Source: a virus
Virus record (IMG/VR): IMGVR_UViG_3300033148_001228
Location: 1-20,442 of that record
Strand: one strand, 5' to 3'
DNA length: 20,442 bases
Numbering within the stretch: position 1 is the first letter of the stretch; every line of letters begins with the position of its first letter. The translations under genes and the position numbers were made by a program. Shown here in pieces: positions 448 through 15,612 of the stretch. The notes beneath the pieces are model-generated. The model did no database searches. It worked only from the letters and a program-made list of their open reading frames with translations, and was not told the DNA's origin.

Positions 448-1371
448 ATGAGAATTATAGTAGTTATGTTACTGTTATTGTTGACAGGGTGTGGGATCGT
501 AGGGGATAAGTCAGTCAAAAGAGATAAGATGCTCGACCCAAACATTCAGTTCATTGGCGAGGCAAGCGCATACAATCAAGGACTATCCAATAAAGTACAG
601 CCTGCTTTTGGTGGGGATCATATTATTGAGGTATCAACAATTAACGAGGGAGATTATCTCTCTTTGTTTTGTGATGTTGGGGCTAAGGGGAATCTTAATT
701 ATGGTTATACAACTAATAATAGAGATTTTTATGTTGATGGCATGGCCTCAATGGATAGACGATTTAGTTATATTTTCAAACATAATAGCATTTACTACAT
801 GGCCTATTGTGCTGAAGGTTCAGGCATGGATATATTTCTAATGAAATCTATTGACTCGGTTAATTGGGAATACTTGAACGAAGGCAATCCAATATTAACT
901 AAGAGTGAGGATATTAACTCTATATACTATTATCTTTGGAATGTAGCGATCACTATTGATAATAATGATGTATGGCACTTGTTCGTTGAATCTGCTCCAA
1001 AAGTAATCAATAATTATAATCTCTTACAAGGTGGCGTGGGTCTTGCGTATTCAACTGCTACTTTATCAGGTGATTTAATAGAATTTGATACCAACAGACA
1101 AGCTTCTCAATTAGTACCATTTGGCGGTAATCCCTGGGCGGAATATAAAGATGGTAAGATTGAATTGATTTATGGTTCTACAGAAAGGGGCCACTGGTCA
1201 ATCAAGGCGGGTATATTTGATATGACAACATTTACAGAATCAGACTTTGAGATATATGAACCTGGTGTACATATCTGCGATCCACACTTAGTTGAAACTA
1301 CTGATGGTAGAAAAATGCTAAGCTATAGTTATGCTCAATTATATACATTCTTTGCATACAAGGAGAACTAA
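448..1371 (+). CDS. lipoprotein with glycosidase-like beta-propeller
   Basis: Residues 1-15 form a lipoprotein signal: a short n-region (MR), a Val/Met/Leu core and the lipobox L12-T13-G14-C15. Cys15 should be lipidated, and the residue after it is Gly, not Asp, which in a Gram-negative host favours the outer membrane. The rest is beta-rich with repeating blade-like stretches (for example IYYMAYCAEG, then SIDSVNWEYLN, and later GKIELIYGS and DPHLVETTDGRKMLSY). This resembles five-bladed propeller glycosidases such as GH43, GH32 or GH117. I cannot assign the catalytic acids with certainty. It is the first gene of the sugar operon and its stop shares one base with the next ATG. Codon use is less biased to CTA than the neighbouring genes, which may mean a different origin. 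A role in trimming or binding host surface glycan, or in blocking superinfection, is inference. Confidence 0.75.
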   Translation: MRIIVVMLLLLLTGCGIVGDKSVKRDKMLDPNIQFIGEASAYNQGLSNKVQPAFGGDHIIEVSTINEGDYLSLFCDVGAKGNLNYGYTTNNRDFYVDGMASMDRRFSYIFKHNSIYYMAYCAEGSGMDIFLMKSIDSVNWEYLNEGNPILTKSEDINSIYYYLWNVAITIDNNDVWHLFVESAPKVINNYNLLQGGVGLAYSTATLSGDLIEFDTNRQASQLVPFGGNPWAEYKDGKIELIYGSTERGHWSIKAGIFDMTTFTESDFEIYEPGVHICDPHLVETTDGRKMLSYSYAQLYTFFAYKEN

Positions 1372-2369
1372 TGAAACCATCAACACAATCGAAACAGAAT
1401 ATGCCAGTTATTGCCAAGGCTAAGGGAAAATATTGCTGGAATAAATATGGTAAGAAATACAAAGACTTCACTGGCGCAAACTTAACCACCGTACTTGGGT
1501 ACAGGCAATCAAAAGCAACTGTCCCTAACCTGCCAGGCGTATCGATAACTGAGCAAGAACTAACTAAGTTGCTATCGTCATACACAGGGACTAAGCACAT
1601 GAGATACTTTAAGAATGGTCACAACGCTGTAGACTGTGCTGTTAGATTAGCGATTCACCTCGCAAGAAACAGAGACAGCGATGTTGAAATACATTTCATG
1701 GGCTATCATGGTACTGGTGATGCCTACATGGAAACAACAGACAATGACAACGGAACAAACTTTAGTAACGACTTTATTAATAGCTATCAATTAAAGCCAG
1801 GAGAAAAACCTTCTTGTGGAGCAACAGATATCCTAGTATTTGAATCACGGTATGCAGAATACGCAGACAAGATAGATGCAAAGATAAAGATATGTGACAC
1901 CCTAAAGGATGGGATCAGAGCTCTGTATGATGGAGTGGATTATGGGGTAGCAAAAACACCACCATTCATAACAGACAAATATTATAACAGGGTAAGGAAT
2001 AATTATGACTTCACTCTCTATGGTAAATCAATAGCCAATGGCACATCAATAGCAGTAATGACAGGTAAAGACGAACGCATGGAAAGAATAGACGAGATAT
2101 ATTATTCTACTACTTTTGGCTGTAACCAAGATGCTATGGTGGAGTGCATAAGAACAATAAAAGATTTTGAGAAAGTAAAAGACAAATACTTTGATCTATA
2201 TAACTACGCTAAAGAAGTTCTTCCTGAGTGGCAGTCGCTAACAACGGATCAAATCAAGGCATTTCAAAAAGAGGGTATATTATTCAACGGATACTGGAGC
2301 ATCCATATTAAACACACAAAGAAAGATATTGATTTCTTATCCAGACTGTGCAATAATATACTATCTTAG
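1371..2369 (+). CDS. class-III PLP aminotransferase, short form
   Basis: Fold-type I PLP enzyme of the class-III group, closest in motif order to glutamate-1-semialdehyde aminomutase-like sugar aminotransferases. Visible landmarks: FKNGHNAVDCAVRLA at about 80-94 (the N-S-G-x-E-A region of relatives), the YHG cofactor-stacking motif at 112-114, Asp176 in KIKICD for the pyridine nitrogen, and Lys219 in LYGKSIANGT as the Schiff-base lysine. At 332 aa it is about 100 residues shorter than usual. The usual D-E-V of the family reads D-T-L here. The start ATG has AAGGAG 5 bases upstream and overlaps the previous stop by one base. In a nonulosonate-type cluster it could supply the amino group of a keto-sugar, a job done by DegT-family PseC in the classical pathway. 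Confidence 0.85.
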   Translation: MKPSTQSKQNMPVIAKAKGKYCWNKYGKKYKDFTGANLTTVLGYRQSKATVPNLPGVSITEQELTKLLSSYTGTKHMRYFKNGHNAVDCAVRLAIHLARNRDSDVEIHFMGYHGTGDAYMETTDNDNGTNFSNDFINSYQLKPGEKPSCGATDILVFESRYAEYADKIDAKIKICDTLKDGIRALYDGVDYGVAKTPPFITDKYYNRVRNNYDFTLYGKSIANGTSIAVMTGKDERMERIDEIYYSTTFGCNQDAMVECIRTIKDFEKVKDKYFDLYNYAKEVLPEWQSLTTDQIKAFQKEGILFNGYWSIHIKHTKKDIDFLSRLCNNILS

Positions 2370-2385
2370 TTAAGAGGGGTGTGGC

Positions 2386-3240
2386 TTGACTGAACTAGAA
2401 AATAAAACGTGGTTAGTGACGGGTGGCTCAGGCTTCCTTGGAAACCAGCTAACAAAAGATATCCTAGATAAACATAATCCAAAAGAAATAAGAATACTGT
2501 CACGCAGTGAAGCTAGACAGGCAGAAATGAAGCGCTCGTTTAAAGATGATAGGCTCAGGTTTATTATCGGTGATGTATCAGATGACAGAAGCGTTAACAA
2601 AGCACTGCGCGGTGTAGACGTTTGTATTCATGCGGCCGCAATGAAGAGAATTGATACATGTGAAGAGAATCCAATTGAGTCAGTAAAAGTAAATGTAAAA
2701 GGTACGATTAATATTATCGAGTCCGCACTGCATCACAACATAGAGTGTCTACTATTTACCTCTACCGACAAAGCGCCAAAAGCAGAGACAACTTACGGAG
2801 CAGGGAAGTATCTAGCTGAAAGGTTAATGCGGAACGCATACCAAGAAAAGGGCGATAGGCAAACACAATTTAAAACAACACGCTATGGTAATGTCTGGAA
2901 CTCTACAGGCTCTGTCGCAAAGATATGGGATAAACAATACGAAGACAAAAAGCCACTAACCGTAACCAGCAAAGAAATGACTAGATTCTTTATGAGTGTT
3001 GGTGATGCAAGTAAATTAGTTTTAGATACTATAGAATCAGGCGAAGAGAATACAGAGCATAGCCTACCAATGAAGTCTGTAAACGTGTATGACTTTTGTA
3101 AACACTTATATCCTAATCAAGAGATAGAGGTAACAGGATTACGCCACGCTGAAAAGATACACGAGGATTTATACGATGGCTACAACAGTGCGGATGTAGA
3201 GATAGCGCCCAGGAAAATGATGGAGTTATTAGCACTATGA
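2386..3240 (+). CDS. UDP-GlcNAc 4,6-dehydratase-like SDR (PseB/FlaA1 type)
   Basis: Extended short-chain dehydrogenase/reductase of the polysaccharide-biosynthesis CapD/PseB group, expected to convert UDP-GlcNAc to a 4-keto-6-deoxy sugar nucleotide. Visible motifs: nucleotide-binding GGSGFLG (13-19), GDV (62-64), HAAAMK (82-87), the active-site run S-T-D-K (126-129) followed by Y137-G-A-G-K141, then RYGNV (166-170), MTRFF (198-202) and RHAEKIHE (243-250). All match the PseB/FlaA1 pattern, so it is likely active. The start is TTG at 2386: AGAGGGG lies 6 bases upstream and an in-frame TAA at 2371 leaves no ATG. At 284 aa it is shorter than the usual 330 or so. Its last four bases (ATGA) overlap the next gene, so the two are probably translationally coupled. 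Confidence 0.9.
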   Translation: MTELENKTWLVTGGSGFLGNQLTKDILDKHNPKEIRILSRSEARQAEMKRSFKDDRLRFIIGDVSDDRSVNKALRGVDVCIHAAAMKRIDTCEENPIESVKVNVKGTINIIESALHHNIECLLFTSTDKAPKAETTYGAGKYLAERLMRNAYQEKGDRQTQFKTTRYGNVWNSTGSVAKIWDKQYEDKKPLTVTSKEMTRFFMSVGDASKLVLDTIESGEENTEHSLPMKSVNVYDFCKHLYPNQEIEVTGLRHAEKIHEDLYDGYNSADVEIAPRKMMELLAL

Positions 3241-3854
3241 CACAGATTGTCTTAGACATGTCAGCAAACACAACAAAGAATGACAACGCTTATCTAAAGC
3301 GTATGCTTGATGAACTCAGGGCAGTGGACACGGGCAAGCATGAGATAATAATTAAGGCCCAGTTGTTTATGAGTGCAGGGCAAAACATAAGAATGACTGC
3401 ATCTCATTTTGATTGCATGTATAAATATGCACAGGCGCTTGGTTATAAATGCACAGCTAGTGTGTTTGACAAAAGGTCACTTAATACTTTGCTTGACTAT
3501 GATATCCCGTTTGTGAAGATAGCGAACGATAAAGAGAAAAGACTACTTATAGGAGATATCCCAAGAAAATACCGAGTATACTTTAGTTATACTGAGAACA
3601 AACCTATTCCATATCTTGATGCAAACGTACATGAAATGTTTTGTATATCAGAATATCCTGCAGACATAGATAAATATCTAAACAATTCTGGATATTTTAC
3701 AGGCTCTAAAATATCAGACCACACTATAGGAACTGAGTTGTTTAAATATGGCGGTATAGAAGTATGGGAAAAACACTACAAACTTAAAGACAGCACTGGT
3801 CTAGATGCTGGTAGCTGGGCGATAACTCCTGAAGAATTAGCAGAGATACTTTGA
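3237..3854 (+). CDS. short NeuB/PseI-like nonulosonate synthase
   Basis: The order of conserved segments matches the NeuB TIM barrel, which condenses phosphoenolpyruvate with an amino sugar: IIIKAQ (37-42, compare VKFQ), SVFD (75-78, compare TPFD), VKIAN (93-97), CISEYP (136-141), SDHTIG (160-165) and EKHYKL (178-183). The protein is 205 aa, against about 340 for bacterial NeuB. It lacks the C-terminal antifreeze-like SAF domain and the barrel itself is shortened. In the usual L-L-H-C-T-x-x-Y-P motif, whose His binds the metal, this protein reads M-F-C at 134-136, so that ligand is Phe135. The second ligand, His162 in SDHT, is kept. It overlaps PseB-like upstream (ATGA) and the zinc-ribbon gene downstream (TGATG). 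Family membership is fairly sure, but activity is uncertain. Confidence 0.8.
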   Translation: MTQIVLDMSANTTKNDNAYLKRMLDELRAVDTGKHEIIIKAQLFMSAGQNIRMTASHFDCMYKYAQALGYKCTASVFDKRSLNTLLDYDIPFVKIANDKEKRLLIGDIPRKYRVYFSYTENKPIPYLDANVHEMFCISEYPADIDKYLNNSGYFTGSKISDHTIGTELFKYGGIEVWEKHYKLKDSTGLDAGSWAITPEELAEIL

Positions 3855-4021
3855 TGGCATTGTATGAATTTAAATACGAGTGTGGTAAGTTGGAAGGTAT
3901 GATATGTAAATATTCAGAGAAAAGAACGCCAAAGTGTAAGTGTGGCAAACAGATGCAGGAAATAAGCGGTATGCCTAGCGTAAACCCAGGATGTTTAAAT
4001 GGAGTTAATATAGCAACATGA
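3854..4021 (+). CDS. tiny FmdB-like zinc-ribbon protein, 55 aa
   Basis: A 55-codon gene whose ATG shares one base with the preceding TGA, and whose own TGA overlaps the next ATG (ATGA), so it fits the coupled operon exactly. The start MALYEFKYECG matches the FmdB/CxxC small-zinc-ribbon pattern (MPxYEYxCxxCG). Cys10, Cys18, Cys28 and Cys30 could bind one metal, with PKCKCGKQM standing for the usual PxCPxCG knuckle, though the spacing is irregular. An ISGMPS stretch follows, as in FmdB relatives. These proteins are common in phages and of unknown function. The exact fit between two genes makes it very likely real. Confidence 0.75.
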   Translation: MALYEFKYECGKLEGMICKYSEKRTPKCKCGKQMQEISGMPSVNPGCLNGVNIAT

Positions 4022-4440
4022 TAAGAGTAGTTAAAAAATCAGACTTAGAACTTATAAGAAAAATACGGAATAAGTGGCACCACTTAGGATTATTCAGGCA
4101 GGACCATAACATATCAAAAAAAGAACAGCTTAAATGGTACGAGGAAAACAAAGATAATCCCGGATATATAATAAACGACAGAGCCTATGGTAAGATATAT
4201 AGTGACAATGAAATAGCTTTCTTTGGCTTTGACGAGTGGGAAGTGAATGATTTACAAGAACTAATCAACAGCTTAAATCCGGTACTCCTCTACGGAGAGT
4301 GCTACCAGAACAATCAGTTCTTAACAATGTGGCTAGATGCAGGGTTTAAAGTAACAGGACACCAGAAGAACAGGAAGTATTGGGACGGTAGAATGTGGGA
4401 TTCACTGCTATTAACATGGAGCAGAAATGATATTTCTTAG
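4018..4440 (+). CDS. PseH-like GNAT-family acetyltransferase, shortened
   Basis: The N-terminus (IRVVKKSDLELIRKIRNKW, then NISKKEQLKWYEE near 31-43) matches PseH-like GNAT enzymes, which N-acetylate the 4-amino group of UDP-linked amino sugars. The end also fits: GECYQNNQ (93-100) is the ExNxxS strand, followed by AGFKVTG (108-114). The central segment is short, and I see no (Q/R)xxGx(G/A) loop, the element that holds acetyl-CoA pyrophosphate. At 140 aa it is smaller than typical PseH. It may use another donor arrangement or be non-catalytic. ATGA overlap with the zinc-ribbon gene and a 14-base overlap with the next gene show it is part of the coupled run. Confidence 0.65.
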   Translation: MIRVVKKSDLELIRKIRNKWHHLGLFRQDHNISKKEQLKWYEENKDNPGYIINDRAYGKIYSDNEIAFFGFDEWEVNDLQELINSLNPVLLYGECYQNNQFLTMWLDAGFKVTGHQKNRKYWDGRMWDSLLLTWSRNDIS

Positions 4441-5383
4441 AGACAAACACTGTTTACTACTACAGCTACAGGACCACTTTAAAGATAAGATTACAGACAA
4501 TCTACTAGAAGCCAAGGTTCTTGTTACATGGTCAGACATACCACAGACAGAAAAGGACCAAGTTATATTAGCTAAAGAAATGGGCATTAAAACAGTAGTG
4601 GTTCAGCACGGCAGAAACGCCACTATAAACTATGACCCTGAGTATCAAGATATAGCAACCGGGCAAGAGAAGTATGACTTTATCGGTGATAAGTTCCTAG
4701 TATGGGGCGAAGCTGACAGGGAAAGATTATTAAGAGGAGGTGTGGCAGATGAAAAGATTACTATCATTGGATGTCCTCTCATTCCTTGCGTGTTACCTGA
4801 TAAGAAAAATGAAGGGGCCATCATCTTCATTACACACCACGACCATTCAAGAGAAGATGCACGATTTGCAAACGAAGAGATACACAAAACGCTCTATGAA
4901 AAATACGGTGGAGAAACATTTGCCTACACCATAGATGACAAGATAAAGACCATAGCTAAGTATGTAATGGTAGTTAGCCCACAGATGGACAATGAGGATA
5001 TCCTAAAACCACTAGAGAAACCGTTTGGAACAATGAGGATTGATTCTGAGGAACGGCAAGCATGGTCCAAGATGATGAGCGCACTAATGAGAGCTAAGTG
5101 TGTGGTATCACCAACAGGTGGCTCGTTTGAAGGATTAGCTCATGCTATGGATGTCCCTGTGTTGAGGGTAGATGTAGACTTTGGTTATCGTGACGCAGAA
5201 GGTGAGAATTTCACAGCAGATCAAAAAGGCTCTAAAGTAATTAACCTTGATAAACTGATAGAAGAAATTGAAAGCCTAGACGCTGCTGATTTAAAAGAAG
5301 AAAGAAGAGAAATTGCAGTTAACGAAATGGGTGTAGATTATTTGCCTAGTAAACTTATACAGGAGATAGAATGTTATTTATAG
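4427..5383 (+). CDS. GT-B-fold transferase of the glycan cluster
   Basis: The 318-aa product has the two-domain layout of GT-B proteins. In the first half, TVVVQHGRNAT (about 56-66) and DKFLVWGEADRERLL (88-102) followed by KITIIGCPLI (110-119) are typical of the CDP-glycerol glycerophosphotransferase / UDP-GlcNAc 2-epimerase-like superfamily. In the second half, VVSPTGGSFEGLAHAMDVPVLRVD (about 216-239) is the nucleotide-sugar-binding loop, with Ser223 and Glu225 in the usual places. It could be a glycosyl- or glycerophosphotransferase, or it could fill the position of the PseG hydrolase or an epimerase. The sequence alone does not decide. It starts inside the acetyltransferase gene (GGAG 5 bases upstream) and overlaps the cytidylyltransferase gene by 13 bases. 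Confidence 0.65.
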   Translation: MIFLRDKHCLLLQLQDHFKDKITDNLLEAKVLVTWSDIPQTEKDQVILAKEMGIKTVVVQHGRNATINYDPEYQDIATGQEKYDFIGDKFLVWGEADRERLLRGGVADEKITIIGCPLIPCVLPDKKNEGAIIFITHHDHSREDARFANEEIHKTLYEKYGGETFAYTIDDKIKTIAKYVMVVSPQMDNEDILKPLEKPFGTMRIDSEERQAWSKMMSALMRAKCVVSPTGGSFEGLAHAMDVPVLRVDVDFGYRDAEGENFTADQKGSKVINLDKLIEEIESLDAADLKEERREIAVNEMGVDYLPSKLIQEIECYL

Positions 5384-5931
5384 TGCAGGCTAGACAAGGT
5401 AGTGAAAGATTCCCTAATAAATGTTTTGAGGAAATAAACGGAGAGTATGTCATAGAGCTGCTTAACCGTAGAATAAAGCAGTCAGACTATTATGATGATA
5501 ATATAATTTACGTTGTACCACCACAGGACACAACGCTTAGAAACTATCTTGAACAAGAGGGGATAGAGTATGTACATAGCTCAGATGAAGATGTATGGAT
5601 AGGATATGCTAACGCCCTAAACACGTATGATACAGACATAGCAGTACGAGTAACAGCAGACAGCCCAATGATAGATATAAACAAAATGGACCAGAGCATA
5701 AAGTTAATGGAGAAGGGCTATGAATATGTCACAGATGAAATAGGAACGCTCGGCACAATTGTAGAGTGCTTTAAACCAGATTCATTTATTAAACACTTCC
5801 CTGAAACCAAAGCAGATAGAATGAATGTCACTCCTGCAATTAGAAGGAAGTCACAGAATAAGCTAATTAAGTCTTTAATGGTAGACTACCCAGAGGCAAT
5901 AAGACACATTGAGGGGCATATCAATGGTTAA
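5371..5931 (+). CDS. SpsF/NeuA-like sugar cytidylyltransferase
   Basis: Nucleotidyltransferase of the SpsF / acylneuraminate cytidylyltransferase group, expected to make CMP-activated sugar. The signature loop QARQGSERFPNK (6-17) matches QARxGSxRLPxK, with Arg13 and Lys17 placed to bind the CTP phosphates. EDVWIGYANA (73-82) and the metal-site strand RVTADSPMID (93-102) follow, and GTIVECF and NVTP (about 128-155) match later SpsF motifs. At 186 aa it lacks roughly 50 C-terminal residues of typical SpsF but keeps the catalytic half. It starts inside the end of the GT-B gene (AGGAG upstream). Its presence next to a NeuB-like gene is the strongest sign of a nonulosonate-type product. Confidence 0.85.
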   Translation: MLFIVQARQGSERFPNKCFEEINGEYVIELLNRRIKQSDYYDDNIIYVVPPQDTTLRNYLEQEGIEYVHSSDEDVWIGYANALNTYDTDIAVRVTADSPMIDINKMDQSIKLMEKGYEYVTDEIGTLGTIVECFKPDSFIKHFPETKADRMNVTPAIRRKSQNKLIKSLMVDYPEAIRHIEGHING

Positions 5932-6517
5932 AGTATGTATCATGCAACCAACGTTCCTTCCCTACTACGGGTACTTTAAACTCATGCAAGAGGCAGATAT
6001 AGTTGTATTCTTAGATAACGTACAGTTCAGTAAACAGTCATGGCAACAGAGAAACAAAGTATTAGTGAACGGTGTCGAGCAATGGTTAACACTGCCAGTT
6101 AAGCAGAAGATGGGGCAGTTGATAAAAGATGTTGAGATAGCAGACAAGGATAAGCTAGATAAAATAATATCAACAGTAGCCACGAGTTTTAAGTATGTGT
6201 TGCAACCAGTCACTACAGAGAACATGGCTAGGATAAACAGGATATGGATTGAACAGCTAGCAAAGAAGCTAGGAATAAAGGCAGCGTATTATTCAGCCAA
6301 TTCACTAGACACAAGTGATATACTAGAGATATGTAAAAAACTAGGAGCAACGGAATATATCTCCACTGGTGGAAGTAGGGTATACTTTGACGATAACCTA
6401 GAGAATAAGTTTCTATGCTCTCGGATAACGGTCGCATTTAGAGACTTTGAGCCAGACTATAGTATAGTGCAGTATTTAGATGATAAAGAATATCTAAAGG
6501 GAAAGGGGTTAATATGA
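5924..6517 (+). CDS. WbqC-like glycan biosynthesis protein
   Basis: The start (MQPTFLPYYGYF, 7-18) and DNVQFSKQSWQQRN (31-44) are the hallmarks of the WbqC-like family, found in O-antigen and sugar-modification loci and of unproven chemistry. Later segments LEICKKLGATEYISTGGSRVYFDD (about 134-157) also fit. I chose ATG 5924 over an upstream TTG at 5909 because GAGGGG lies 7 bases before the ATG. The gene then overlaps the cytidylyltransferase by 8 bases. At 197 aa it stops just before the final conserved stretch (S-I-x-D-x-L-F) of longer relatives. Its job is probably a late step, such as acylation or transfer on the amino sugar, by inference from context. Confidence 0.85.
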   Translation: MVKVCIMQPTFLPYYGYFKLMQEADIVVFLDNVQFSKQSWQQRNKVLVNGVEQWLTLPVKQKMGQLIKDVEIADKDKLDKIISTVATSFKYVLQPVTTENMARINRIWIEQLAKKLGIKAAYYSANSLDTSDILEICKKLGATEYISTGGSRVYFDDNLENKFLCSRITVAFRDFEPDYSIVQYLDDKEYLKGKGLI

Positions 6518-7101
6518 ATTGGAAGGGCAAGGGTGGCGATAAGTACACAGAAAGAAACTCTCCTGATATAGACAAGAGGGCTAAATGGTTTGATAAGATA
6601 CTGCCGAAAAACATCTTTGATGTTCATGAAATAGGGTGTAATAAGGGACACAATCTGGTAGCCATAAAAAAAACAAGGAATGTTAACATATCTGGCTGTG
6701 ACCTTAATGAAAAAGCAGAAAGAATTGCTATGTCTAACGGTGTTTATATTATGACCCCTGTAGACGCTGATTTAATACTGGCATCAGGTGTATTAATGCA
6801 CCAACACCCACTAGAGTTAGACACAATGTTTACAGAGCTAGAAGATGCGACTAAATATATCCTAATGATTGAACACAAAGAAGATTCGATCAGAACAATA
6901 AACACACGCTGGTATAAAAATGCGATGTGGGTTATGGACTTCGGGAAAGAGTTCTTAGACAGACACCCTAGCTGGAAGTGTATCAAAAAGGGCTGGGTAA
7001 ACGGCAAGAAACCTAAAGAGCTAGACTACACTAAACCACTAACAGATACGAAGACAGGATTTCATGAGACAGACTACTACTGGCTATTAAAGAGGAAGTA
7101 A
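6514..7101 (+). CDS. pseudaminic-acid-associated SAM methylase
   Basis: Class I SAM methyltransferase whose overall pattern matches the family annotated as pseudaminic acid biosynthesis-associated methylase. The start WKGKGGDKYTERN (3-15) parallels FWxGxFGDEYTxRN. The SAM loop is EIGCNKGHN (39-47), then SGVLMHQHPLELD (91-103), ILMIEH (116-121) and the WYKNAMWVMDFGKEFLDRHP stretch (133-152). The YYWLL end parallels the family's WFLLEK. The target is likely the sugar or an intermediate of the pathway encoded just upstream. The start overlaps the WbqC-like stop by ATGA and has AAAGGGG before it. This family match independently supports reading the module as nonulosonate-related. Confidence 0.85.
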   Translation: MNWKGKGGDKYTERNSPDIDKRAKWFDKILPKNIFDVHEIGCNKGHNLVAIKKTRNVNISGCDLNEKAERIAMSNGVYIMTPVDADLILASGVLMHQHPLELDTMFTELEDATKYILMIEHKEDSIRTINTRWYKNAMWVMDFGKEFLDRHPSWKCIKKGWVNGKKPKELDYTKPLTDTKTGFHETDYYWLLKRK

Positions 7102-7452
7102 ATGCAGAAATACACAGGGGGCGGAGATAAACTATGGTCACTCAATGAAGATGACCCCTCTCTATGCGGAATAAACGACCTAACCTATGATTCGGTAGAA
7201 CAAATAGGAGATGGTGTTAAGAAGGACTTGTTCGAGATATTAATAAAAGGCGCTGCATTTAAACTAGCAACAGATGATAAGATAACTGAACAAGAACGGG
7301 ATATATTGCTATTTGCTATGGGTATAGATGAATACTACCCAAGGAAAGAAGCAAAGGAACAGGCTAAGTTTTACAAGATAAGCAACTTAAAGGTTAGGAC
7401 AATAAGATATCAAGTAGCACAAAAGGTGCTAAAGGAGATACAAGGTGAATAA
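7102..7452 (+). CDS. sigma-70 region 4-like small regulator
   Basis: The C-terminal half (about 61-114) reads like sigma-70 region 4: ITEQERDILLFAMGID parallels L-T-E-R-E-R-x-V-L-x-x-R-Y-G-L-D. It is followed by a helix-turn-helix (EQAKFYKISNLKVRTIRYQVAQKVLKEI, about 86-113) that parallels EEIAxxLGVSRERVRQIExxALxKLR. No region 2 (core-binding, -10 recognition) is visible in the first 60 residues, so it is not a complete sigma factor. It may be a phage-specific sigma-like activator, a polymerase-binding cofactor, or only a distant HTH protein. It starts directly after the methylase stop (AGAGGAAG site) and is followed by an 8-base overlap, so it is expressed with the terminase block and could switch on later genes. 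Confidence 0.6.
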   Translation: MQKYTGGGDKLWSLNEDDPSLCGINDLTYDSVEQIGDGVKKDLFEILIKGAAFKLATDDKITEQERDILLFAMGIDEYYPRKEAKEQAKFYKISNLKVRTIRYQVAQKVLKEIQGE

Positions 7453-8020
7453 CTACTGGGAAGATAACACCGTAACGCTAGGCTGGAAAGACTTTAAAGA
7501 TGACCGGCATGGAGACGTAACAGAAATAACTAACACTATCATAGAACTCCTACCATCTCTAGAGAAAGACTCTCTCATTGTAGAGGTAGGCTGTGGACAA
7601 GGTAGGAACCTGGCTAAACTAGAATCATTAGGATACACCAACTTAATAGGCATAGAGATAAACAAAGAGAACATAGAACAAATAAACACAGACTATCCAG
7701 ACCATAAGTTCAAGACACTCAATAGAGACGCTTACCTGGCTCTGTTAGATATTCACGCTAAACTAATCATTACTGCATCATCTGCATATCTAATGGACAA
7801 GTCCACAATAAGCCTAATACAAACAAGTTGTGACTACTACATAGCAGTAGAACCAACAACAAAGACTCACTTTACGCCATACGATACTAAATACAATCAC
7901 TATAACTATAAACAAATACTAGACAAAATGGTATATATTAGAGGAGTAGACTGCAAGTGGGACAACTACCAAGGCCACCTATTCTGTAAAAAGGAGTGCG
8001 TAACATGCCGACTAAACTAA
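7445..8020 (+). CDS. class I SAM-dependent methyltransferase
   Basis: Starts at GTG with AAGGAG 7 bases upstream, inside the end of the sigma-like gene. The SAM-binding loop EVGCGQGRN (47-55) and the following acidic strand end (LIGIEINKENIEQI, about 67-80) are clear. The rest is weakly conserved to my eye. The protein ends with a Cys-rich tail (CKKECVTC) that may be partly a by-product of overlapping the next gene. The substrate is unknown. It could act on the glycan, as its neighbour at 6514 does, or on a small molecule or nucleic acid. No DNA-methylase target motif such as DPPY is present, so a DNA-modifying role is unlikely. Confidence 0.8.
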   Translation: MNNYWEDNTVTLGWKDFKDDRHGDVTEITNTIIELLPSLEKDSLIVEVGCGQGRNLAKLESLGYTNLIGIEINKENIEQINTDYPDHKFKTLNRDAYLALLDIHAKLIITASSAYLMDKSTISLIQTSCDYYIAVEPTTKTHFTPYDTKYNHYNYKQILDKMVYIRGVDCKWDNYQGHLFCKKECVTCRLN

Positions 8021-8403
8021 CGGCTAAACAAGAAAAGTTCTGCCAAGAGCTAGTAAAAGGCGCAACACAAACAGACGCATATAAAGCAGCGTATAATGCA
8101 AAAAACATGCAACCAGAAGTTATTCACGTAGAGGCTTGTACACTAGCTAAGGACCATAAGATAGCCATAAGGATAGAAGAGCTAAAGAAACCCATACAGA
8201 AGAAATTTACCAAGACTGTCACTGATCTACTACAGGAGATTGAAGACCTTAAAGAAGATGACGATAAGAAACTAAGCCTAGACTGCATTAAAGAACAAGG
8301 CAAGATGCTAGGGTACTATGTTAACAAGATAGAAACCAAGATAGAGATATCTGACATGAGCAAGATACTGGATAGCATGGAAGATGGACCCAAGAATACT
8401 TGA
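8005..8403 (+). CDS. terS: terminase small subunit
   Basis: The N-terminus MPTKLTAKQEKFCQELVKGATQTDAYKAAY matches the Terminase_2 family (L-T-x-K-Q-E-x-F-x-x-x-Y), a DNA-binding helix-turn-helix that recognises phage DNA for packaging. The middle (about 70-100) is charged and helical, suited to oligomerisation. I place the start at ATG 8005, 8 bases after AAGGAG, because the in-frame GTG at 7996 lies within that site. The start overlaps the methyltransferase gene by 16 bases and the end overlaps the large subunit by 20. The length (132 aa) is normal for the family. Confidence 0.85.
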   Translation: MPTKLTAKQEKFCQELVKGATQTDAYKAAYNAKNMQPEVIHVEACTLAKDHKIAIRIEELKKPIQKKFTKTVTDLLQEIEDLKEDDDKKLSLDCIKEQGKMLGYYVNKIETKIEISDMSKILDSMEDGPKNT

Positions 8404-9940
8404 TAAACGGTGGAGGATTAACCACCTATACAAGATAATAGATAAACACGGTAATCTTATAACGTTCAAGTGTAACGATGAGCAGACATACCTATTCAAC
8501 AAGTACCAGAAACACAAACAAGAGAACCAGGTAACAGGGCTAAGAGAGCAGAACCTAAAGGCCCGACAGATTGGGTTCACTACATTTCACTGTATATACT
8601 ACCTAGATGAAATACTCTTCAATCGTAATAGACACGCTAGAGTTGTGGCACATAAGCAGAAGCTGTTGAACGAGATATTCGAGAAGATAGACATAGCATA
8701 CAAATACCTGCCTGATATGTTCAAGATGAAGACCAAGAACGAGACAGCACATAAAATATCATTTGAAGAGTCTAACAGTTCTATCTCTATTACCCTTGAT
8801 TGTCGTGGCGAGACAGTCCAACACTTACACGTTGCGGAGATGGCGTTTATCAAGAACCCTAAGAACTTTAAAGCAGGATCATTTAAGGCAGTGCCCAAGT
8901 CTGGCGATATAACCATTGAGACAACAGCCAATGGAGTGGGTAATGACTTCCATAACAGTTGGAAGAACCCGCGGCAGTGGAATAACAATTTCTTTAGTTG
9001 GCTAGATCACAAAGACTACATCACACCTTTAGTAGAAGGTGAGGTCATAACCGGCGCACATGATGACTACTTAGATGAAATAGGGGCAACCCCAGAACAG
9101 CGTAAATGGTGGTACTTTGAGTTATCAGAGCTAAGTGGTGACTTGGACTTAATGTTACAAGAGAACCCAGCAAGACCAGAAGACGCTTTTATTTCCAGTG
9201 GTAGACCAGTAATGCCTAATATTAAGTTTGATACACTCGAACCAGAGCGAGTAGAGATTACCCCTGATAAGATGATAGATAGATTCTTTGAGCCAGTTGA
9301 TGGCATGGAGATAACCAAAGAGCAAGCGGTTAAGCTAGGCATGGAGATAGACGATGTCTTAGAGTTCCACGTGGAACCTTCTGCTAAAGCACCACTCCGA
9401 GTATGGAAGAGGCCGGAAGATGGGAAGATGTACTGTATCGGTGGAGACGTTGCAGAGGGACTAGCTAAGGGTGACTATAGCTGTGGCTATGTGCTTTGTA
9501 TCGATGATTTCGAGATAGTGGCTAAGTGGCATGGACATACTGCGCCTGATGAGTTTGGCGTAGAGTTAGTCAAGCTAGCACGATGGTACAACAACGCAGA
9601 GATAGGGGTAGAGGTTAACAATCATGGTTTAGCTACACTTAACAAGATTAAATCTATTTACGATAACATATACTTTAGAGAGAACTACGATGAGATAGCA
9701 GATAATATGACACGTAAGATAGGGTGGCAAACTAACCTAAAGACTAAGCCACTGATGATATCTGAACTACATGAGTCGCTAAGGGATAAGTTATTAAAAG
9801 TCCATGACGAAGAGTTGCAAGGCGAAGTGGCTACGTTTGTCTATGATGATAATGGCTCAATGAACGCAACTGAGGGTTGTTATGATGACAGGGTTATAGC
9901 TGCGGCAATAGTGATACAGGTGTATAAAAGCATAGCTTAA
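8384..9940 (+). CDS. terL: terminase large subunit (ATPase and nuclease)
   Basis: DNA-packaging motor protein of 518 aa. ATPase domain: Walker A-like KARQIGFTT (59-67), Walker B strand HLHVAE with catalytic Glu152, and coupling motif ETTANG (179-184). RNase H-like nuclease domain: Asp355 in CIGGDVAEG, Glu410 in GVEVNNHG and the paired Asp501-Asp502 near the end are placed like the metal-binding acids. The acidic residue usually before the catalytic Glu is Ala here, a variation seen among terminases. No good ribosome-binding site precedes ATG 8384, so it probably depends on coupling to the overlapping small-subunit gene. The stop TAA lies inside the first copy of the 22-base repeat element. 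Confidence 0.95.
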   Translation: MDPRILDKRWRINHLYKIIDKHGNLITFKCNDEQTYLFNKYQKHKQENQVTGLREQNLKARQIGFTTFHCIYYLDEILFNRNRHARVVAHKQKLLNEIFEKIDIAYKYLPDMFKMKTKNETAHKISFEESNSSISITLDCRGETVQHLHVAEMAFIKNPKNFKAGSFKAVPKSGDITIETTANGVGNDFHNSWKNPRQWNNNFFSWLDHKDYITPLVEGEVITGAHDDYLDEIGATPEQRKWWYFELSELSGDLDLMLQENPARPEDAFISSGRPVMPNIKFDTLEPERVEITPDKMIDRFFEPVDGMEITKEQAVKLGMEIDDVLEFHVEPSAKAPLRVWKRPEDGKMYCIGGDVAEGLAKGDYSCGYVLCIDDFEIVAKWHGHTAPDEFGVELVKLARWYNNAEIGVEVNNHGLATLNKIKSIYDNIYFRENYDEIADNMTRKIGWQTNLKTKPLMISELHESLRDKLLKVHDEELQGEVATFVYDDNGSMNATEGCYDDRVIAAAIVIQVYKSIA

Positions 9941-14385: not shown

Positions 14386-15612
14386 ATGAACATATTAGTA
14401 ATGTCTCAAGGCCTAGGTGGTGCGATACCCTGGTATAGACTGACACAATCACTTAGATATTTAGAGAAGCAAGGACTTGTAACACCTATTTTCATGGACT
14501 CACGAAAAGACCCAGTACATATAACCCAACGCATAAAAGATGCGGATGTAATAGTCATGCAGTGTCGTACAGACTGGAAAGCATTAGCGTACATACAGGT
14601 GGTTAATAAGAACTTCCCTGAAAAGCTAGTGGTGACTGAGTACGATGATAATATATTCGATATCCATCCTTGGAACGATAAATACAAAACACTAGGGCAA
14701 AAGGAAGTATCACTCACTATCGATAAGAAAGATGGCGTGTTATATGACAAGTACCTAAAACTAGCCAAAGAGAAGGGCATGGATCCCGTAGAGCATAAAG
14801 ATAAGCTTGTCTCTTACTTATGGAAAGACGGCATCAACGGATTTAATAAAGACGAGAACATAGACAGAATGAACGCCTGTGCTATGACAATAGAGGCCAG
14901 TGATTTACTAACAATAACAACAAAGAGCTTAGGTGAGTATATGAAGAATTACTCAAGCAGAGTAGGGCCAATAGCCGTGCTTCCTAACCTGATAGACTTT
15001 AACTACTGGCTCCCTCAAAAAGATAACGATACAGGCAAACTAAGGATAGCATGGCAAGGTGGATCATCTCACTATAGAGACTGGCGCATGTGTGAAGACG
15101 CACTCGTAGAACTACAAGAGCATGTGGATTTCACGCTAGTGGTAGCCGGACAGAAGTTTGATGGAAAGCTAAAGCAAATTAAGGATATAGAGTTTATCCC
15201 TTGGCATGGCGATATAAGGACGTACCCTTTAATGATGCGTAATTTAAAAGCAGATATAGGCATAATCCCACTAGAAGACAATAAGTTTAACCGTGGCAAG
15301 TCCGCATTGAAGTGGCTTGAATACTCAGCATTAAAGATACCAGCGATAGCCAGTGATGAGACACCGTACAAACAGGTTGTTAAGCAGGGCAAAACAGGAT
15401 TGCTTGTAAGGAACACAAAAGAAGAGTGGCTTAACGCTTTCTTAAAGCTGGCCAACGATAAGAAACTACGTGACAGTATCGCTGATAAGGCACATAAAAG
15501 AGTCAAGGCCAAGTGGTCGCTAGCGGACAATGCAATGGACTGGTACGAAGCATATAAGCAGTGTCTAGATGCCAAGCGACTGGATAACACCAAGAAAGAA
15601 CTAGCATTATAA
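14386..15612 (+). CDS. GT4-type glycosyltransferase
   Basis: GT-B-fold glycosyltransferase of 408 aa. The N-terminal domain starts MNILVMSQGLGGAIPWYRLTQSL, with the glycine-rich acceptor loop, and carries VVTEYDDNIFDI (about 84-95). The C-terminal domain has IAWQGGSSHYRDW (about 224-236), then GIIPLEDNKFNRGKSALKWLEYSALKIPAIASDETPY (about 295-331), which is the donor-binding EX7E-like region of GT4 enzymes. Its place between capsid and tail genes, instead of with the sugar genes, suggests it acts on virion proteins or is timed with virion assembly. Whether it uses the CMP-sugar from the upstream module is open, since nonulosonates are normally moved by sialyltransferase-type enzymes. Copy 3 of the 22-base element follows its stop. 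Confidence 0.88.
   Translation: MNILVMSQGLGGAIPWYRLTQSLRYLEKQGLVTPIFMDSRKDPVHITQRIKDADVIVMQCRTDWKALAYIQVVNKNFPEKLVVTEYDDNIFDIHPWNDKYKTLGQKEVSLTIDKKDGVLYDKYLKLAKEKGMDPVEHKDKLVSYLWKDGINGFNKDENIDRMNACAMTIEASDLLTITTKSLGEYMKNYSSRVGPIAVLPNLIDFNYWLPQKDNDTGKLRIAWQGGSSHYRDWRMCEDALVELQEHVDFTLVVAGQKFDGKLKQIKDIEFIPWHGDIRTYPLMMRNLKADIGIIPLEDNKFNRGKSALKWLEYSALKIPAIASDETPYKQVVKQGKTGLLVRNTKEEWLNAFLKLANDKKLRDSIADKAHKRVKAKWSLADNAMDWYEAYKQCLDAKRLDNTKKELAL

Follow-up and report, generated by a model that had tools for sequence, protein, structure and literature searches.

A compact run of probable nonulosonate-type genes overlaps the terminase genes of an uncultured phage

The virus record IMGVR_UViG_3300033148_001228, a 20,442-bp stretch, possibly a fragment, analysed here in full from position 1 onwards (the window), carries a run of overlapping genes for putative nonulosonate-type sugar enzymes that continues into the terminase genes terS and terL. 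Here we report the genes of this run, the families to which they belong, the key residues that they retain, their overlaps and the co-occurrence of the same families in other phage contigs; from these we infer the probable substrates, the hydrolase and acyl steps that are missing, the timing of expression and the target. On balance, we favour the view that the run encodes the phage's own pathway, reduced in size, for a nonulosonate-type activated sugar that would be made late in infection.

Organization of the locus

The window contains packaging and head genes recognized by PHROG profiles, namely terS, terL, portal, scaffold, capsid and tail genes, with the capsid assigned to PHROG 1328 (5e-89). 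The terS gene (7996..8403, likely start 8005) matches PHROG 51 (1.1e-17) and the terL gene (8384..9940) matches PHROG 2 (1.2e-17); these and all other window features described below lie on the plus strand. The terL product is related, at about 33%, to those of Aeromonas and Vibrio phages, and a DNA search of phage records with the window returned no near relative. L002, the viral contig most similar to the window (capsid 73%, terL 44%), begins within terL, so conservation of the cluster cannot be judged from it.

The genes of the run are intact open reading frames (ORFs) on the same strand, preceded by ribosome-binding sites, and neighbouring genes between 448 and 9940 overlap at all junctions but two, which measure 0 and 16 nucleotides (nt) (gaps, successively −1, 16, −4, −1, −4, −14, −13, −23, −4, 0, −8, −25 and −20 nt). 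The chain of overlaps passes through terS into terL and ends at the portal gene, after a gap of +36 nt. As the run would be translated together with terS and terL, its expression is probably late. Promoter-like and terminator-like sites occur in the window at about chance level. The cluster and the structural genes differ little in codon use (mean difference 0.049), a sequence-level likeness which suggests that the cluster has resided long in the phage rather than being newly captured. Bacterial contamination fused to a viral contig was considered and rejected, as the enzyme genes overlap terS and terL co-directionally and their codon use is near that of the structural genes.

Enzyme families encoded by the run

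Scores above the respective Pfam cut-offs were obtained for the NeuB-like, SpsF-like, PseB-like and WbqC-like proteins and for a class III aminotransferase. The PseB-like protein (2386..3240) is a PseB/CapE/SpsM-type dehydratase-like protein, of the kind that acts on uridine diphosphate-N-acetylglucosamine (UDP-GlcNAc) as a 4,6-dehydratase (PF02719, 2e-70; structure 2gn4, 4.6e-55). It matches the PseB homologue of phage contig G013, described below, at 42.7% and carries T-x9-Y-x3-K, the catalytic triad motif of these dehydratases (PMC7439481). Upstream lies the shortened class III aminotransferase (1371..2369, 332 aa; PF00202, 1e-13), in which alignment to 2eh6 reveals that the pyridoxal phosphate lysine K219 and the aspartate are retained. 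A search for the DegT match of a PseC/LegC-type enzyme found none; thus, the aminotransferase of an earlier sequence-based note on this DNA is present, but it belongs to class III and not to the DegT type of PseC. The SpsC aminotransferase is likewise a DegT-family and not a class III enzyme. Relatives of the window aminotransferase were found by whole-record search in the phage contigs L048 (G015) and G013, and an alignment search of viral contigs returned nothing.

The NeuB-like synthase (3237..3854) is a compact protein of 205 aa that consists of the barrel only. Its score against PF03102 (29.5 bits, 6.4e-7) exceeds the Pfam gathering cut-off of 22.1, and the segment from residue 45 to the end aligns with a profile of NeuB homologues at 48 bits. 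An AlphaFold model derived from 22 sequences (pLDDT 74) comprises eight strands, and a Foldseek search with this model ranks NeuB, SpsE and PseI first and 3-deoxy-D-manno-octulosonate (KDO) 8-phosphate (KDO8P) synthases next. With VIA-align, the model superposes on Neisseria NeuB with a Z score of 19.5 (rmsd 2.4, 198 residues), compared with 15.5 for the best KDO8P synthase, although these fold matches are biased by an input alignment made of NeuB homologues and offer support rather than proof. We compared the active-site residues H215, H236, E234, K129, K53, E25 and D247 of Neisseria NeuB: the window protein retains the metal histidines (H162 and H180), E178, K94 and Y140, whereas K53 and D247 find counterparts (K40 and D190) only through a shifted alignment. 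The window protein also retains 22 of the 47 columns in which 21 homologues show at least 95% conservation.

Barrel-only NeuB proteins of 231–248 aa are widespread in bacteria (loci L064–L081), including Pelagibacteraceae, Synechococcus, Rhodospirillaceae, Gammaproteobacteria and other genomes, where they often lie near SpsF, and they also occur in the phage contigs L038, L043, L047, L082 and L083. The window protein shares with these bacterial proteins and with Leptospira 6ncs (285–290 aa) a barrel without the SAF domain, but is shorter, and those proteins are far less divergent. In L064–L081, the barrel-only NeuB gene several times adjoins asparagine-synthase-like and SpsF genes.

The SpsF-like cytidylyltransferase (5371..5931, 186 aa) is shortened at its C terminus, scores 54.6 bits against PF02348 (1.6e-14; Pfam cut-off 22.6), matches structure 6oew (4.4e-9), and contains RQGSERFPNK, which fits the RxGSxRxPxK signature, and TADSPMID. 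The earlier note held that its reading would fall if the NeuB-like and SpsF-like proteins lay outside nonulosonate families; by profiles, both fall inside their families, and the NeuB model agrees in fold. The WbqC-like protein that it named is likewise borne out (5924..6517, within an ORF of 5909–6517 whose likely start is 5924; PF08889, 2.7e-36), and its nearest viral relative is in L087 (8e-29). The next gene (6514..7101) encodes a protein of the pseudaminate-associated methylase family (TIGR03587, 1.1e-21), relatives of which adjoin the compact NeuB in L043.

Nonulosonate-type clusters in other phage contigs

Comparable nonulosonate-type clusters occur in other uncultured phage contigs, a finding new to this analysis. 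A NeuB query of 50,697 phage records found two phages (cyanophage AG-345-L05 and an uncultured 484-kb phage) and one bacterial contig, and in AG-345-L05 (L030), a PtmA-like reductase, SpsF, a DegT aminotransferase and a barrel-only NeuB stand in a row. In IMG/VR, a search returned 29 contigs with NeuB homologues, mostly of 270–290 aa and lacking the SAF domain. One contig, IMGVR_UViG_3300009537_002640 (G013, with the loci L043, L136 and L137; 206 kb), is myophage-like by its baseplate and PhoH proteins and encodes, within about 25 kb, homologues of PseB, PseC, PseH, PseG, NeuB and SpsF together with a class III aminotransferase, a compact NeuB and two methylases from the same family as that of the window; six of the families of the window run have relatives in this stretch. 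Another, IMGVR_UViG_3300030106_006452 (G017, L087; 131 kb), with a T4-like terminase (2.6e-51) and portal (1.5e-79), has a run of NeuB, SpsF, PseB, PseC, PseI, PseF and NeuD homologues with WbqC, and PseG is not detectable there, as in the window. The T4 tail sheath model has no match in G013–G015; the T4 capsid model has none there either, but it also has none in the controls and the comparison is therefore empty. For G014 and G015, phage status rests on the collection label and a few phage-type genes.

The repeated co-occurrence of these families provides the chief new argument for regarding the window genes as a single functional set. What the window shares with the clusters of G013, G017, G015 (L048), L062 and AG-345-L05 is NeuB with SpsF or NeuA and aminotransferases, and with G017 in particular it has PseB, NeuB, SpsF and WbqC in common. 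The other clusters belong to larger phages, have longer enzymes and many more glycosyltransferases, and show no coupling to terS and terL in the stretches read; moreover, G013 has a PseG homologue. We regard the window cluster as a compact and atypical representative of what seems to be a wider class of nonulosonate clusters in phages.

Two further arrangements were observed in these contigs. At approximately 41–83 kb, G013 contains a glycan supercluster of roughly 40 kb, with, besides the Pse homologues and the class III aminotransferase, three NeuB and SpsF/NeuA homologues, a GlmS-like protein and several GT-B proteins. A phage protein of 613 aa in L049 (12036–13877) fuses a NeuB domain (PF03102) to a xylose-isomerase-like barrel (PF01261).

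Completeness and divergence of the proposed pathway

Several results, besides the bias of the fold comparison, weigh against a working pathway of this kind. The six-step set for a nonulosonate linked to cytidine monophosphate (CMP), from dehydratase, aminotransferase and acetyltransferase to hydrolase, synthase and cytidylyltransferase, is incomplete in the window, where no hydrolase or functional acetyltransferase was found, although the host could supply them. No match to the PseG/SpsG hydrolase (TIGR03590) was obtained in six frames of the window, which may be a fragment, at E values up to 10. The GNAT-like protein (4018..4440), which the earlier note had called a PseH-like acetyltransferase, proved not to merit that name: it has no profile match above threshold (PF13420, 0.0093, below cut-off) and no Protein Data Bank match, and it lacks the RxxGxG acetyl-CoA-binding segment when aligned to the GNAT of phage contig L043, its sole convincing relative (7.5e-5). 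The PseB-like protein is PseB-like at the level of family and triad, but its 241.2 bits against TIGR03589 lie below the equivalog cut-off of 407.75. Similarly, the methylase has TIGR03587 as its best and only NCBIfam match, but at 77.9 bits it falls under the cut-off of 112.05. In the NeuB-like protein, Glu25 of Neisseria NeuB has no counterpart in the alignment and the SAF domain with Arg314 is absent, the chain ending after barrel strand 8; many phage and bacterial NeuB homologues also lack this domain. In a tree, it sits on an end branch of 7.26 changes per site (median, 0.5), too long for its placement to be usable. Finally, searches of viral contigs turned up none that shares the gene order of the window, and single-sequence scans of viral contigs with the NeuB-like, PseB-like and 4427–5383 proteins found no close relative. 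The families of NeuB and SpsF and their co-occurrence in phage contigs therefore uphold part of the CMP-pseudaminate/legionaminate logic proposed earlier, but with no PseG-type hydrolase, no recognizable acetyltransferase, an aminotransferase of another class and an extremely divergent synthase, a complete pathway of that kind is not established and the claim was too strong.

These features could also mean that the run is a decaying remnant, with open frames and a pathway that no longer works. Most of the enzymes are shorter than their relatives (aminotransferase, 332 versus 432–439 aa; PseB-like, 284 versus 332–382 aa; NeuB, 205 versus 231–349 aa; SpsF, 186 versus 241–248 aa), the GNAT-like protein has lost its cofactor segment and the NeuB branch is extreme. 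We consider such decay improbable, because no ORF is broken, the genes are closely coupled, they have ribosome-binding sites and resemble the structural genes in codon use, and because catalytic residues are kept in the dehydratase, the aminotransferase, the NeuB core and SpsF.

Alternatively, NeuB and SpsF may have changed substrate and serve another sugar, for instance one used for DNA hypermodification. The long NeuB branch, the alteration of about half of the strongly conserved columns and the finding that SpsF matches KDO cytidylyltransferases best in NCBIfam would fit such a change. In Vibrio phage V-YDF132 (L031, 11336–19967), genes for a PIG-L-type deacetylase, a WbqC-like protein, a glycosyltransferase and a ParB-like protein stand in a row just before terL, which leaves room for DNA modification, and DNA-modifying glycosyltransferases are known from viruses (cited in PMC12619734). 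However, the window, as far as this fragment extends, has no base-modifying enzyme, and the fold match to NeuB clearly beats that to KDO8P synthase; we regard a different sugar as quite improbable.

Other genes of the run

The first gene of the run (448..1371) encodes a predicted lipoprotein with the lipobox LTGC, an assignment made from the ORF and the lipobox; its stop overlaps the aminotransferase start by 1 nt. The protein has no Pfam, PHROG or NCBIfam match and no real similarity to the glycosidase-like protein adjoining WbqC in L087. Its codon choice (few ATA, many AGA) is unlike that of the rest, in a gene too short to judge. A 55-aa zinc-ribbon-like protein with CxC pairs (3854..4021), recognized by its sequence and without a Pfam match, follows NeuB. 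The 318-aa protein encoded at 4427..5383 is possibly a GT-B surface-carbohydrate transferase (sub-threshold TIGR04396, 0.017, and TIGR04331, 0.036) and by profile is not PseG. Profile comparison with the GT-B-like proteins adjoining other NeuB genes gave a probability of 0.3%, which makes the glycosyltransferase label weak, and scanning this protein singly against genome contigs found no close relative.

Between the methylase and terS lie a 116-aa protein (7102..7452), which has no Pfam or PHROG match, and a second S-adenosylmethionine (SAM)-dependent methyltransferase (7445..8020; Methyltransf_11, above cut-off), both coupled within the run. The operon therefore does not run straight into terS, as had been stated. 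The seven genes listed in the earlier note do exist, in one direction and overlapping or nearly touching, but the lipoprotein, the zinc ribbon, the 318-aa protein and two genes had been overlooked.

Possible destination of the sugar

Outside the run, the second gene after the capsid gene (14386..15612) encodes a GT4-like glycosyltransferase (PF00534, 2.8e-9), a candidate virion glycosyltransferase. Its position is conserved in L002, L003 and L006 and also in ctQWt234, a complete podovirus of 40 kb; in L006 and ctQWt234, it ends a cassette of sugar-modifying genes. Such recurrence of sugar genes within the late module of podoviruses favours virion decoration, in which the sugar would be put on capsid or tail proteins by this enzyme or by the 4427–5383 protein. 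The overlap of the run with terS and terL points in the same direction. Glycosyltransferases of the PF00534 type usually use nucleoside diphosphate (NDP)-sugars rather than CMP-sugars, a point against this enzyme as the transferase, and L002 and L003 carry it without nonulosonate genes, within the extent of those contigs. Glycosylated virions are known among mycobacteriophages (cited in PMC12619734). Taken together, a virion target is possible, if rather on the unlikely side. Cassettes between capsid and tail genes in L086 (15788–20819) and L006 (10946–14856) contain radical SAM, glycosyltransferase, methyltransferase, PhyH and NodB-like genes; these loci belong to related podoviruses, and each cassette closes with the counterpart of the window gene 14386–15612.

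The sugar could instead alter the host cell surface, during infection or in a lysogen, with receptor masking or superinfection exclusion as the outcome. The predicted lipoprotein encoded first in the run favours a role at the host surface, as does WbqC, which, like the methylase, belongs to a family typical of surface-polysaccharide and flagellin loci. Prophage enzymes that alter the pseudaminate capsule of their host are documented (PMC12053666), and ctQWt234 carries an integrase. The latter also undoes the argument that the genes are not in a lysogeny-conversion position, which a fragment does not allow to be judged. On the other hand, the window has no flippase, polymerase or membrane transferase, and a surface change would presumably be less useful at the late stage to which the terS/terL overlap points. 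We consider a host-surface target unlikely.

Comparison with known systems

The window resembles the Bacillus subtilis sps pathway for legionaminic acid (SpsM, SpsC, SpsD, SpsG, SpsE and SpsF; PMC7439481) in the dehydratase family with its triad and in having an aminotransferase, a synthase of the NeuB type and a cytidylyltransferase of the SpsF type. By contrast, the window has no match to the SpsG hydrolase, its NeuB lacks SAF and any counterpart of SpsD is putative at most; moreover, the sps genes lie on a bacterial chromosome and serve the spore coat, whereas the window is from a phage. With the Campylobacter/Helicobacter pathway (PseB, PseC, PseH, PseG, PseI and PseF), it shares PseB-like and NeuB-type proteins, a CMP-sugar cytidylyltransferase and the pseudaminate-associated methylase family, but it has the class III enzyme instead of PseC, no PseG and no significant PseH match, and all its scores fall below the equivalog cut-offs. 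The prophage proteins EpaA and EpaB are phage products that also act on nonulosonates, but unlike the window run, they change a host-made sugar and supply no synthesis genes (PMC12053666). A further report also concerns prophage change of host pseudaminate (PMC6586298), and a table in a 2013 virome study lists neuB (126) and neuA (11) (PMC3877843). Literature searches, with subscription papers and preprints outside their scope, found no description of a phage-borne nonulosonate pathway.

Discussion

In the phage-owned pathway that we favour, the PseB-like enzyme would dehydrate UDP-GlcNAc to a 4-keto-6-deoxy sugar, which the class III aminotransferase would aminate and to which an acyl group might then be added. 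A host or unrecognized enzyme would free the sugar from UDP, and the compact NeuB would combine it with phosphoenolpyruvate to yield a nine-carbon keto-acid, which the SpsF-like enzyme would activate with cytidine triphosphate. WbqC and the methylase may modify the activated sugar or aid its transfer, and the sugar would end on the virion or the host surface. A bolder version would have this small tailed phage produce a nonulosonate of its own with minimised enzymes, couple this to packaging and decorate its virions, as one case of a wide and hitherto undescribed class of phage-encoded nonulosonate pathways; as a whole, it appears to us unlikely.

If these clusters work, some phages would coat themselves or their hosts with self-made sialic-acid-like sugars, with implications for the masking of receptors, for superinfection and for the stability of virions. 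The compact NeuB would then rank among the smallest members of its synthase family and would put the need for the SAF domain to the test.

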